Assembly (NCBI GenBank): GCA_021811325.1
Contig: JAJZPE010000011.1
Span: forward strand, 1-40,584
Origin: Bacillota bacterium
GTDB lineage: Bacteria > Bacillota > Sulfobacillia > JAJYWN01 > JAJZPE01
DNA: 40,584 nt
Reading direction: 5' to 3'
Below the pieces are notes generated by a model. That model worked only from the letters and a program-made list of their open reading frames with translations. It did no database searches and was not told where the DNA came from. Positions 20,402 to 24,838 of the stretch are shown here, piece by piece. The first letter of the stretch is position 1; each line of letters starts with the position of its first letter. The translations under genes and the position numbers were made by a program.

Positions 20402-21559
20402 ATGAGCTACTTTTACGACGGCGCTCCGGACCTTCGCCGGAACCGGTGGTCGCCACTCGGCAAGACCATCGCCGTTGCGGTCGTCGCCGCCCTCTTGGGA
20501 GGCGTGGCCGGCGGCGTTTTCGCCTTGCGCTTCTCCGGCTGGTTCGGCCCGGCGCCGCGGCTAGGAGTGGCGGCCGGCGTCAATCCCAGGACGGTGAGCA
20601 CCGTCCCGGGCACGGCTTCGCCGGTCGTCCAGATCGCCGACCAGGTCGGCCCGGCGGTGGTCAGCATCACCAACCGGGCCCAGGTGACCGACTGGTTTCG
20701 CCGCACCTACATGGCGGACCAGGGGCGAGGCTCCGGCGTCATCTTCGACCCGCGAGGCTACATCGTGACCAACAACCACGTCGTCGCAGGGGCCGATGAG
20801 GTCTGGGTGTCCCTGGCCGACGGCCAGCACCCCGTCAAGGCCAAGCTCATCGGGGCCGACGCATGGAGCGACATCGCCGTCGTCAAGATCGACGCCCAGA
20901 ACCTCCCGGCGGCCACCTTCGGCGACTCGGATCAGCTCAAGGTGGGTGAACTGGCGGTGGCCATCGGCAACGCCGTCGGTGAGTTCGAGCGGACGGTCAC
21001 CGCCGGCATCATCAGCGGCCTCAACCGGAAAGTCTCGGTGCAGGACGACCGTTACGGGGAGAAGGAGCTGACGGTCATCCAGACCGACGCGGCCATCAAC
21101 CTGGGCAACAGCGGCGGCCCTCTGGTCAACGGCGAGGGACAGGTCATCGGGATAAACACCGTCAAGATCAACGCCACCGGCGTTGAGGGGCTCGGTTTCG
21201 CCATCCCGAGCAACACCGTCCGCCAGATCGTCAACGAACTGGTCGAGAAGGGCCGCGTGGTCTGGCCCTGGCTTGGCGCTCAGCTGGTCGACAAGGAACA
21301 GGCGGCTGTGCAGTTGCGGATGAACTTCGACCACGGGGTGCTGGTTTACCGGGCCGCGCCCGGCGGCCCCGCCGCCAAGGCCGGGATCCAGGACGGGGAC
21401 ATCATCCTCTCCATGGATGGAAAGGCCGTCGAGGCCGGCTCCGACATCAGGACCCTGATCCACACCTACAAGGTGGGCCAGAAGGTCGAGGTGACGGTCC
21501 TCCGGAACAACGCCAGGAAGACCTTCACCGTCACCCTGGAAGAGGCCCCGAACAACTAG
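20402..21559 (+). CDS. htrA: HtrA/DegP-like membrane serine protease with PDZ domain
   Basis: A 385-residue trypsin-like protease that degrades misfolded proteins outside the membrane. A short cytoplasmic N-terminus is followed by one helix at about 21-44. The protease domain spans about 75-280 with the full triad H126 (TNNHVV), D157 (DIAVVKI) and S237 (GNSGGPL). One PDZ domain fills about 285-385. AAGGGGAG precedes ATG 20402. The gene has its own promoter and a strong terminator, so it is a single-gene unit. It lies next to a heavily cysteine-containing secreted cytochrome, which could be a client, but that is only proximity. Confidence 0.94.
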   Translation: MSYFYDGAPDLRRNRWSPLGKTIAVAVVAALLGGVAGGVFALRFSGWFGPAPRLGVAAGVNPRTVSTVPGTASPVVQIADQVGPAVVSITNRAQVTDWFRRTYMADQGRGSGVIFDPRGYIVTNNHVVAGADEVWVSLADGQHPVKAKLIGADAWSDIAVVKIDAQNLPAATFGDSDQLKVGELAVAIGNAVGEFERTVTAGIISGLNRKVSVQDDRYGEKELTVIQTDAAINLGNSGGPLVNGEGQVIGINTVKINATGVEGLGFAIPSNTVRQIVNELVEKGRVVWPWLGAQLVDKEQAAVQLRMNFDHGVLVYRAAPGGPAAKAGIQDGDIILSMDGKAVEAGSDIRTLIHTYKVGQKVEVTVLRNNARKTFTVTLEEAPNN

Positions 21560-21706: not shown

Positions 21707-22004
21707 GAACAAACATCAAGTCTAGCTGGGGAAATAACGGACCCCCGCCGAGCCACGGGGCAGCGCAATTGGAGCCATAAAGTGAAAGACCACACAACCG
21801 ATTGTGAAAAGCAGAGCAGCGGAAAGGATAACCGCTGCTATCGTGGCGTGCGGGAGAAGAGTTAGAAAAGCCGTCAACGCAAAAAGGGGCCCTACAGGCT
21901 CTTTCCCAAGTGTCCTGAAACCTTTGGGGCAAAGGAGGTGAAACAACACAGTGACCCACAACAGGTTGGACAACCACCAGACCATGACGAAAGGAGGCGA
22001 GAAA
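21707..22004 (+). other. Long leader region of the SLH cytochrome gene
   Basis: No gene is visible between the operator and the cytochrome start. GCAGCGG and CCGCTGC near 21811-21837 can form a stem. A full ribosome site AAAGGAGGTG (21931-21940) precedes an in-frame GTG at 21951, and a second AAAGGAGG (21990-21997) precedes GTG 22005. I could not match the leader to a known riboswitch. Confidence 0.5.
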
Positions 22005-24224
22005 GTGAAGAGAACAGTCCTCTTCCTCAGCATCCTGGTCCTCTCGGTGCTGGTCGTTTCGGGGGTCGCCCTGGCGAAGTCTGAATACCAGGGGTCCTTC
22101 ACGGCCAAGTATCCGGCGGCCAAAGGGAGCACACTCGACAGCTGCAACCTTTGCCACAAGTCCGATTTCAGCCAGAACCAGTACGCAAAGGACTTCGCAG
22201 CGGCCGGCCACGATTTTGCGGCCATCGAGGCGAAGGACTCAGACGGGGACGGCGCTAGCAATATCGCCGAGATCAACGCCAAGACGTTGCCCGGCGATGC
22301 CACGAGCAAGCCCGCCAGCTCCGGTGGCGGCAGCAGCTCGACCCCGCCCGCCCCTCCGACTCCCCCCAAGACCGTCGACAAGTCCGTAAAGTTCTGGGAC
22401 CTCGACGGGCATTGGGCTCAGGGGGTCGCGAAGAAGGCGGCCACCCTGGGCATTTTCAAGGGGCGTCCCGACAACTCGTTCGGCCCGGAAGCTAACATCA
22501 CCCGCGCTGAACTGGCGGCCATAATCCTCCGCACCTTCAACCTGCCTGAAGGCGGAGGCGCCTCCTTCAAGGATGTCTCGGCCAACGACTGGTTCGCTTC
22601 GAGCGTCGCCGGCGCGGCTCAGTTCGTGCCCGGCCTGCCCGATGGGACCTTCCGGCCGAACACCGCCGCGGACCGTCAGACCACCGTCGTCGCCCTCCTC
22701 CGGGCCTCCGGCCTAGAGGGCAGCGCGGTCGCGATGGATCCGAGCGAAGTGGCGGCCATCCTCGCCGGCTACAGCGATGCGAAGAGCGTCGCCGCCGACA
22801 AGGCTCCGTACTTCGCCTACGCGGTCCGTTCCGGGATCATGAGCGGCAACTCCAACAAGACGCTCACCCCGGCGGGCACCCTGACCCGGGCTCAGCTGGC
22901 TCAGATCTTCGTCAATCTCTACACCACCAAGGTCTCTCTCACTACCCTCGCCAACAACTACGTCGGGTCTGAGACCTGCAAGACTTGCCATTCCCAGAAC
23001 TACGCCGATTGGAAGACCACGGCCCACTCCAAGATGATCCAGGATCCCAAGACGCCGGGCGCCATCATCGGTGACTTCTCCACCAACACGAAGTTCACCG
23101 TGGACAAGGTGGCCATGGTCGTTGCCGGCCAGATGACCAGCCAGCGCTACCTCGAAAAGAGGGGCGATGAGTACTGGTACCTGCCGGCGGCCTGGAACAT
23201 CGAAACCAAGACGTGGTCCAATCTGAACCCGTCCAAGTGGAGCGGCTCCTGCACGGGCTGCCACGTCGTGGGCTACAACGCCAAGACCAAGACCTGGTTC
23301 GAGAACGGCGTAACCTGCGAGGCCTGCCACGGCGCCGGCGCTCAGCACGTCGCGTTCGGCGACAAGAGCGCGATCAAGAAGTCCGTCGGCGACCAGATGT
23401 GCTCTCGGTGCCACGGCGGCCAAGTGGCTGATCTCGAGAAGACCGGGCATGCCAGCTTCTTCAAGAGCCAAGTTGACGCGGTTGGCGGCCACTACGGCGA
23501 CGGCTGCATCAAGTGCCACTCGGCGACGGTCATCGTTGCTAAGTACAACGGTAAGACCGCTCCGAAGCTCGCCGACTTTAAGACCGGAGCCCTCCAGAAC
23601 GACCGCAACGGCATCACCTGCGTCGTCTGCCACGACCCGCATAAGCGGACCAACGAGGCTCAGCTCCGGAACACGGTCGCCGATACCTGCACGGTCTGCC
23701 ATACCAGCGACAAGGGTGGCGCGACCTATACCGCCGGCAGCGCGGTGCACCATCCGACCAAGGAGATGTTCCAGGGCGTCGGCGCCATCGACGTCCCGAA
23801 CATGCCCGCTCCGAAGGTCATCGCCTGCGCGGATTGCCATATGGCCGGTGGTAGCCATGCCTTCGTGCCCGGAACCCCGACCGTCACCATCGCCACCAAG
23901 CATGGTCCGGTCGAGGAAAACCCCTGCGCGAAGTGCCATACCAGCATGACCAAGGAGAAGGTTGAGGAGTTCCAGAAGGACATCGAGGCTCAGATGGCTG
24001 AGGTCAAGGGTCTGCTCGACCAGGCCAAGGCCAAGCTCGATGCGGCCAAGACAGCCGGCACCACGATCGACTCCAGCGTGGAGCTGCTCTACAAGCAGGC
24101 CTTCACGAACTACAGCTTCCTCGAAGCCGACAAGTCCAAGGGTATCCATAACCCGCCGTATTACCGCGAGATCCTCAAGGTCTCCAAGACCAAGCTCGAG
24201 GACTTCCTGAGCAAGGTCAAGTAA
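22005..24224 (+). CDS. Secreted S-layer-homology decahaem c-type cytochrome
   Basis: Numbered from GTG 22005 (739 residues). This start gives a classic signal peptide (1-24, cut near ALA-KS). Ten CxxCH haem sites are visible with first Cys at 47, 325, 416, 438, 466, 501, 539, 562, 608 and 641. The first site lies in a small N-terminal domain with a Ca-binding-like DSDGDGASN (78-86). A Ser/Gly/Pro linker (105-124) leads to three SLH repeats (about 128-172, 187-233, 252-303), which in this protein class bind wall polymers. The nine other haems form a domain resembling cytochrome c554-type proteins (YVGSETCKTCHSQNYADWK). Residues 650-739 are helical and haem-free. The likely role is electron transfer at or through the wall, for instance to extracellular acceptors, but reductase activity on a soluble substrate is also possible. 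Its own terminator and CRP/FNR-type operator suggest separate control. An in-frame GTG at 21951 with its own ribosome site could add 18 residues. Confidence 0.93.
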   Translation: MKRTVLFLSILVLSVLVVSGVALAKSEYQGSFTAKYPAAKGSTLDSCNLCHKSDFSQNQYAKDFAAAGHDFAAIEAKDSDGDGASNIAEINAKTLPGDATSKPASSGGGSSSTPPAPPTPPKTVDKSVKFWDLDGHWAQGVAKKAATLGIFKGRPDNSFGPEANITRAELAAIILRTFNLPEGGGASFKDVSANDWFASSVAGAAQFVPGLPDGTFRPNTAADRQTTVVALLRASGLEGSAVAMDPSEVAAILAGYSDAKSVAADKAPYFAYAVRSGIMSGNSNKTLTPAGTLTRAQLAQIFVNLYTTKVSLTTLANNYVGSETCKTCHSQNYADWKTTAHSKMIQDPKTPGAIIGDFSTNTKFTVDKVAMVVAGQMTSQRYLEKRGDEYWYLPAAWNIETKTWSNLNPSKWSGSCTGCHVVGYNAKTKTWFENGVTCEACHGAGAQHVAFGDKSAIKKSVGDQMCSRCHGGQVADLEKTGHASFFKSQVDAVGGHYGDGCIKCHSATVIVAKYNGKTAPKLADFKTGALQNDRNGITCVVCHDPHKRTNEAQLRNTVADTCTVCHTSDKGGATYTAGSAVHHPTKEMFQGVGAIDVPNMPAPKVIACADCHMAGGSHAFVPGTPTVTIATKHGPVEENPCAKCHTSMTKEKVEEFQKDIEAQMAEVKGLLDQAKAKLDAAKTAGTTIDSSVELLYKQAFTNYSFLEADKSKGIHNPPYYREILKVSKTKLEDFLSKVK

Positions 24225-24264: not shown

Positions 24265-24294
24265 CGGGCACCCGCGAGGGTGCCCGCTTTTTTT
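24265..24294 (+). terminator. Strong terminator after the SLH cytochrome gene
   Basis: A 9-bp perfect stem (24265-24273 with 24278-24286) with a GCGA loop is followed by GC and seven T residues (24288-24294). Confidence 0.95.
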
Positions 24295-24358: not shown

Positions 24359-24838
24359 ATGCAGTTCAAAATCGTTGCCGTGGGCAAGGCGCGGGAACCC
24401 TTCATCCAGGCCGGGGCCGAGGAGTACCTCAAGCGATTGCGGCCATACGGCCGGTTCGCGGTGGCCGAGCTGGCCGATGAACCCCTCCCCGCCAGGCTGA
24501 CCCCCGGGCACGAAAAGAAAATCCTCGCCGCTGAGGGGGCGAGGATAAGGGAAGCCTTGCGCGACGGCGATTTCGTGGTCTGCCTCGACCGCCAGGGGAA
24601 GGCCCTGTCGTCAGAGGAGTTCGCCGCTTTCCTGGATGAACTGGCCGGGCGCGGACGCAGCAGTGTGGCCTTCGTCATCGGCGGGACCATCGGCCTCGAC
24701 CCGGCCCTTCTAAAGGAAGCAGGCATGAGCCTGTCTCTATCCAAGATGACCCTGCCCCACCAGCTCGCCCGCCTCTTCCTGCTCGAGCAGCTCTACCGGG
24801 CGTTCAAGATCAGGCGGGGAGAGCCATATCATCACTGA
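24359..24838 (+). CDS. rlmH: 23S rRNA pseudouridine-1915 N3-methyltransferase RlmH
   Basis: A 159-residue SPOUT-family enzyme that uses SAM to methylate pseudouridine 1915 in helix 69 of 23S rRNA on the assembled 70S ribosome. The trefoil-knot signature is present: VAFVIGGTIGLDP (about 105-117) and LSLSKMTLPHQLARLFLLEQ, and the protein ends with the family C-terminus EPYHH. GGGGAGGGAG lies just before ATG 24359. It appears to be a single-gene unit after a strong terminator and converges on the helicase gene. Confidence 0.96.
   Translation: MQFKIVAVGKAREPFIQAGAEEYLKRLRPYGRFAVAELADEPLPARLTPGHEKKILAAEGARIREALRDGDFVVCLDRQGKALSSEEFAAFLDELAGRGRSSVAFVIGGTIGLDPALLKEAGMSLSLSKMTLPHQLARLFLLEQLYRAFKIRRGEPYHH

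Follow-up and report, generated by a model that had tools for sequence, protein, structure and literature searches.

Little is known of how electrons pass across and out of the thick Gram-positive cell wall; the surface reductases with solved structures are OcwA and OmhA. The locus studied here raises the question of whether a single polypeptide could both hold on to the wall and deliver electrons there, as an initial annotation had proposed. The window, i.e. the whole stretch of 40,584 nucleotides that was analysed, contains an open reading frame of 739 amino acids at positions 22005-24221 of the forward strand, closed by a stop codon at 24222-24224, that encodes a c-type cytochrome with SLH repeats and ten haem-binding motifs in one polypeptide (22005-24224 with the stop). 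All features of the locus given below are on this strand. The GTG start codon at 22005 lies 5 nt 3' of a ribosome-binding site, AAAGGAGGCG (21990-21999). The gene stands alone between htrA, coding for an HtrA-type trypsin/PDZ protease (20402-21559), and rlmH, coding for a SPOUT methyltransferase (24359-24838); an intrinsic-terminator-like hairpin follows on its 3' side (24265-24286), and there is no operon with other cytochromes. Both neighbours are syntenic, and the link seen between htrA and the cytochrome is one of position.

The ten CxxCH motifs start at residues 47, 325, 416, 438, 466, 501, 539, 562, 608 and 641, against about 0.016 expected from the amino-acid composition. A Pfam search with the protein finds SLH in three stretches (E = 1.2e-28), together with multihaem families. 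The N-terminus is a putative signal peptide, residues 1-24 (VKRTVLFLSILVLSVLVVSGVALA; 22005-22076), read from the sequence alone, hydrophobic and with ALA at its end. It precedes a monohaem domain (residues 25-105; 22077-22319) that carries CNLCH at 47-51, a candidate axial residue at position 69 and a DSDGDG loop at 78-83, where TSP3_bac and Temptin_C match weakly. The same domain is similar to NF041762 (diheme_GEGP) with an E value of 8.5e-18, at a score far below the family cut-off. Then come a Gly/Ser/Pro-rich linker (residues 106-127; 22320-22385), three SLH repeats, a nonahaem terminal-reductase domain (residues 316-650; 22950-23954) and a C-terminal three-helix bundle (residues 651-739; 23955-24221). 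The reading frame, the Pfam matches and the conservation across relatives all agree with the composition first read from the sequence: signal peptide, monohaem domain with its DSDGDG loop, three SLH repeats, nine further CxxCH and a helical tail.

The candidate axial residue of haem 1 (22209-22211) is His, Met or Lys among the members of the window-family alignment (A1). This makes an unusual three-way switch, all three being possible haem ligands.

In SpaA, residues of the Arg, Gly and Trp types build the grooves that bind pyruvylated ManNAc (PMC6081394). The window protein has the counterpart of SLH-Arg43 in all three repeats (Arg167, Arg224 and Arg295), as well as that of SLH-Gly29 (Gly153, Gly210 and Gly281), and the Trp13 site holds Trp in two repeats of three. 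Repeat 1 (22386-22517) contains W137, GIFKG at 149-153 and TRAE at 166-169; repeat 2 (22566-22712) contains W196, G210 and DRQT at 223-226, with Arg224 kept; repeat 3 (22767-22919) contains GIMSG at 277-281 and TRAQ at 294-297, with Tyr269/Phe270 at the Trp site. The wall-binding residues are thus not lacking. In a full-length model from 10 sequences (pLDDT 61, pTM 0.34, haem domains poorly modelled), the SLH part mostly reaches a pLDDT of 70-90, is predicted to adopt the trimer fold and matches the SLH structures of Sap and SpaA with a TMt of 0.7-0.8. This fold and the TRAE/TRAQ, GIIxG-type and Trp motifs are common to SpaA, Sap and the window protein (PMC6081394; PDB 6cwc, 3pyw). Contrary to SpaA and Sap, where SLH anchors structural S-layer proteins, the module here is placed inside a cytochrome and has DRQT in its second repeat.

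The genome encodes one polysaccharide pyruvyl transferase, CsaB, which scores 304.9 bits with TIGR03609 against a curated cut-off of 213.1. No Omp85 was found in the window genome and 60 relatives, 61 genomes in total, while the controls did match; this absence supports a single-membrane cell, and on the same ground we rejected a diderm plan with SLH bound to peptidoglycan beneath an outer membrane. Altogether, the SLH trimer is canonical and keeps its wall-binding residues, and the predicted wall anchoring put forward by the initial annotation is supported by these residues, by the modelled likeness to Sap and SpaA, by CsaB and by the lack of Omp85.

The nonahaem part has its nine CxxCH in the order of OcwA and is homologous over the full domain to surface reductases of the OcwA/OmhA type. 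Among solved structures, phmmer ranks OcwA (6i5b, E 1.4e-44) and OmhA (6qvm, E 1.9e-32) first, with all others far behind; a profile search gives E values of 7e-93 and 2e-76, respectively. Residues 306-739 were modelled with AlphaFold on the basis of 27 homologues (pLDDT 90.4, pTM 0.85). The fold predicted for them is of the 6i5b/6qvm type, three-helix tail included: Foldseek gives query TM scores of 0.77 with OmhA and 0.73 with OcwA, the next being MccA and NrfA at 0.4-0.5. A soluble enzyme family, nitrite reductase NrfA or sulfite reductase MccA, is therefore matched only weakly, by a shared fold, and is not the best match. A search of viral structures gave no match. The surface electron-transfer role first assigned from motifs is supported by homology, OcwA and OmhA, the closest relatives of solved structure, both being surface cytochromes.

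In OcwA, haems 1, 3, 4, 6, 7 and 8 have bis-His ligation and haem 9 has His/Met; the sites of haems 2 and 5 are open and bear His-His 281/282 and 380/381, respectively (PMC6703420). The OcwA chain and the published numbering differ by a constant 29, an offset that suits both His-His pairs. Outside its CxxCH motifs, the window protein has six invariant histidines, 341, 448, 482, 546 and 618 in the nonahaem domain and 715 in the tail; in the alignment, a distal His is conserved for all six bis-His haems of OcwA. His-His 582/583 is conserved too, at the open site of haem 5. The motif of the haem 2 open site is absent from the window protein, as the insert bearing 281/282 is missing in the window clade, and catalysis may therefore differ from that of OcwA. 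Having both motifs does not define the OcwA/OmhA group, because the OmhA orthologues vary at the haem 2 site: one has His-His and two have a single His. We propose that the nine C-terminal haems form a compact core of the c554-plus-NrfA type. The tail, initially described as haem-free and helical, is indeed the three-helix bundle typical of NrfA and OcwA proteins; the description needs correcting in that it bears the invariant His715.

No CxxCH is lost, and the domain order is the same, in relatives that are 83%, 77% and about 43-48% identical. By rank, identity is 83% within the genus, 77% within the family and about 48% within the order, and further families of the class also carry the layout. 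Whole-genome searches of the class for the same order found it, from signal peptide through a single haem (most members having a DSDGDG-type loop there), SLH and nine haems to the tail, in 11 of 154 genomes, counting two genes cut by contig ends (G031, G532) and one interrupted by unread bases (G021). Two further relatives, G004 and G006, lack the N-terminal haem; their SLH part precedes eight or nine haems. The dN/dS ratio is about 0.25 over the whole gene, near 0.2 in the haem 1 domain, 0.24-0.31 in SLH and 0.22-0.29 in the nonahaem part; the linker, with a ratio of about 1 against the nearest relative, is the only unconstrained part in that comparison. The cytochrome gene is thus conserved and under purifying selection. 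Its neighbourhood is kept as atpD-atpC-htrA-cytochrome-rlmH within the genus, as htrA-cytochrome-rlmH, on a short contig, in a second genus of the family, and as atpD-atpC-htrA-cytochrome in another family of the same order.

In family f28, which is more distant, a seven-CxxCH protein comes next after the SLH cytochrome (L009:2-1198 (-), L011:3727-4713 (+), L012:3603-4667 (+)). This protein has a conserved C-terminal hydrophobic segment and is a possible electron partner of the SLH cytochrome. In the second genus of the family, an extra fragment similar to the linker and SLH part of the cytochrome (residues about 96-168) lies at a contig end, upstream of htrA (L051:6762-6896 (-)); it may belong to a second SLH gene or be left over from assembly.

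Elsewhere in the genome, on contig C224, a b6-like gene for cytochrome b precedes one for a petD-like protein with a fused seven-CxxCH domain (L044:4218-6110 (+)); the pair looks like a menaquinol:cytochrome c oxidoreductase with a built-in heptahaem. Contig C242 encodes a ten-CxxCH protein (L045:6513-7679 (+)), and contig C1 a small protein with three CxxCH whose N-terminus is lipoprotein-like. For cytochrome-c assembly, the genome has two proteins of the CcsA/CcmF type; the genome search did not find ResB, nor, run as it was with no dedicated model, did it identify a clear through-wall cytochrome like CwcA. The ten-CxxCH protein is weakly similar to the ExtM/ExtN/ExtO proteins of selenite/tellurite operons, and its gene lies close to those for a YeeE-type sulfur transporter and a rhodanese protein.

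Judging from sequence, homology and models, the window protein is probably exported and belongs with OcwA and OmhA to one group of multihaem terminal reductases; it would be docked by SLH on a pyruvylated secondary cell-wall polymer and would discharge electrons to an extracellular acceptor. We infer its surface display, the direction of electron flow and the role of haem 1, as well as the acceptor, for which we draw on OcwA and OmhA only (PMC6703420, PMC7829351). In the mechanism that we envisage, menaquinol would be oxidised at the membrane and its electrons passed to the wall by other small multihaem carriers. They would enter the cytochrome by the N-terminal monohaem domain, whose haem may serve as entry port, and/or by the nonahaem core, and leave from surface-exposed haems to an Fe(III) mineral, an electrode or a shuttle. 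The SLH trimer would meanwhile keep the cytochrome bound to the pyruvylated wall polymer, on the surface of a cell with a single membrane.

The genome is a draft of 248 contigs, from which an assembly chimaera or a decayed gene fusion could arise; the chance of this is practically nil, and we consider it refuted by independent relatives with the same fusion. The fusion recurs in independent assemblies, the frame is intact, and both the low dN/dS and the conserved synteny of atpD-atpC-htrA-cytochrome(-rlmH) speak against it. In a strong form, the initial annotation's haem wire would make the molecule a direct conductor across the wall or S-layer, the SLH anchor having haem 1 on its inner side and the nonahaem part on its outer side. 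It is true that the two lie on opposite sequence sides of the trimer, in an order conserved in 11 genomes. However, haem 1 is 278 residues away from haem 2, parted from it by the Pro/Gly/Ser linker and the SLH module; the SLH part has no haem sites, and the haem 1 domain is missing in the two SLH relatives G004 and G006. With no SLH haem sites and a low-confidence linker (pLDDT about 30 in the full-length model), we rejected the one-molecule wire as unsupported and give it very little probability; this part of the initial reading is not borne out.

That the protein is displayed on the wall as an enzyme for a dissolved substrate in the manner of NrfA or MccA (nitrite, hydroxylamine, sulfite or another oxyanion), and not for a mineral or electrode, is favoured by its fold kinship to both and by the conserved His-His 582/583 at the open site; OcwA, too, is a slow reducer of nitrite and shows a reaction with hydroxylamine (PMC6703420). 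Against this, no enzyme comes nearly as close to it as OcwA and OmhA do, and the nitrite kcat of OcwA is just 1 per min (PMC6703420), which leaves such a role unlikely. Electrons could also flow inward or both ways, in uptake from Fe(II), metal or a cathode, or in exchange with a partner cell. Multihaem chains are reversible in principle, and Dethiobacter expresses homologues of OmhA under conditions of Fe(II) oxidation, and one of these under no others (PMC10376724). We nevertheless find this improbable: the search of the genome identified no gene set for Fe(II) oxidation or cathodic growth, and the cytochrome b/heptahaem pair present is of the quinol-oxidising type.

For the anchored terminal reductase that we prefer, the closest precedent in layout is OmhA. 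In C. ferrireducens it exceeds all other multihaem cytochromes in abundance, reaches its largest share in cells grown with ferrihydrite and was found on sheared cell surfaces (PMC7829351). The PDB entry 6qvm bears the title 'Undecaheme cytochrome from S-layer of Carboxydothermus ferrireducens', and OmhA has two N-terminal CxxCH (35 and 59), a haem-free stretch and nine further CxxCH from residue 229. Tikhonova et al. 2023 (Structure, doi 10.1016/j.str.2022.12.010) is reportedly the paper on this structure. The SLH columns of the window-family profile A1 align to OmhA 111-210, while Pfam SLH has no match in OmhA orthologues and hhalign of the SLH trimer with the central module of OmhA is weak (probability 10, E 0.003). 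The SLH identity of that module thus comes from the A1 alignment, the PDB title and the title of the cited paper, with no independent domain match. OmhA is thus a published precedent for the principle of setting an S-layer-type module between N-terminal haem(s) and a nonahaem reductase.

OmhA and the window protein have in common haems ahead of an S-layer-type module, the nonahaem domain, the helical tail, the core ligands and, probably, the function of a surface Fe(III) reductase. OmhA differs in having 11 haems, two of them N-terminal, whereas the window protein has 10, with a single N-terminal one in a different, DSDGDG-containing domain. Its central module has no Pfam SLH match, in contrast to the canonical trimer found here, and it retains a His at the haem 2 site where the window protein has lost the motif. 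The order of parts, first judged unusual, is so in its monohaem N-terminus and canonical SLH trimer, but OmhA already joins haems, an S-layer-type module and nine haems.

OcwA of Thermincola potens, a cell-surface reductase (PMC6703420), is like the window protein in its nonahaem core, six bis-His ligands, His-His at the haem 5 site and three-helix C-terminal bundle. It begins, however, at the nonahaem domain, with neither an N-terminal haem domain nor SLH, and bears His-His 281/282 at a second open site, a motif absent from the window protein. The archaeal MHC-A/B proteins of ANME resemble the window protein in concept, in that a multihaem cytochrome includes an S-layer domain so that electrons can be passed on or presented at the cell surface (PMC9012536). 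They are analogous only: they have 20-80 haems, a predicted transmembrane anchor and an S-layer domain of the DUF1608 type, unrelated to SLH and with a haem in its linker (PMC9012536).

In a tree of the nonahaem part with 27 sequences, the OmhA orthologues form one fully supported clade, and the window protein, with its 10 haems, is on a separate branch; it is not an OmhA orthologue. Nor is it an orthologue of OcwA, which groups with the nearly identical L072 and with L078, leaving the window protein outside. The window family falls within a third set, beside proteins that lack SLH and others with a Cu-amine-oxidase N-terminal domain before the nonahaem part, so the slot ahead of that part holds different modules by lineage. 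The layout of haem 1 and SLH takes two changes on the best tree, and its single origin is possible.

The Cu-amine-oxidase N-terminal domain (PF07833) takes the position of SLH in L063:1489-3669 (-), L061:964-2877 (+) and L078:1-2226 (+); in L063 it sits between the first CxxCH and the nine later ones.

The window protein is a variant of the OcwA/OmhA type and not a new class of system or a new principle. New are its monohaem, not dihaem, N-terminal domain, the canonical SLH trimer with Arg, Gly and Trp in a genome that has CsaB, the loss of one of the two open-site His-His motifs of OcwA, and the apparently exchangeable slot, filled by SLH or, in relatives, by the Cu-amine-oxidase N-terminal domain. 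It is conceivable, though we hold it rather doubtful, that Gram-positive surface reductases of this group have at large an exchangeable anchor slot between an N-terminal input-haem domain and the nonahaem part, with a canonical SLH trimer here, a diverged S-layer module in OmhA and the Cu-amine-oxidase N-terminal domain elsewhere, and that haem 1, on the wall side of the anchor, acts as an entry port tuned by the His/Met/Lys axial switch. Reductases anchored in this way are met with repeatedly in one class, so they are no peculiarity of Carboxydothermus. The clade offers a clean, canonical SLH-anchored terminal reductase in which the wall-binding residues can be recognised, so that its wall anchoring can be tested by single-residue changes.

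A Chloroflexota metagenome-assembled genome (JAADGC010000018.1; L036:1-8290 (+)) encodes a cluster of very large multihaem proteins, with 22 and 32 CxxCH, which adjoins tandem OcwA-like frames that seem partly duplicated.
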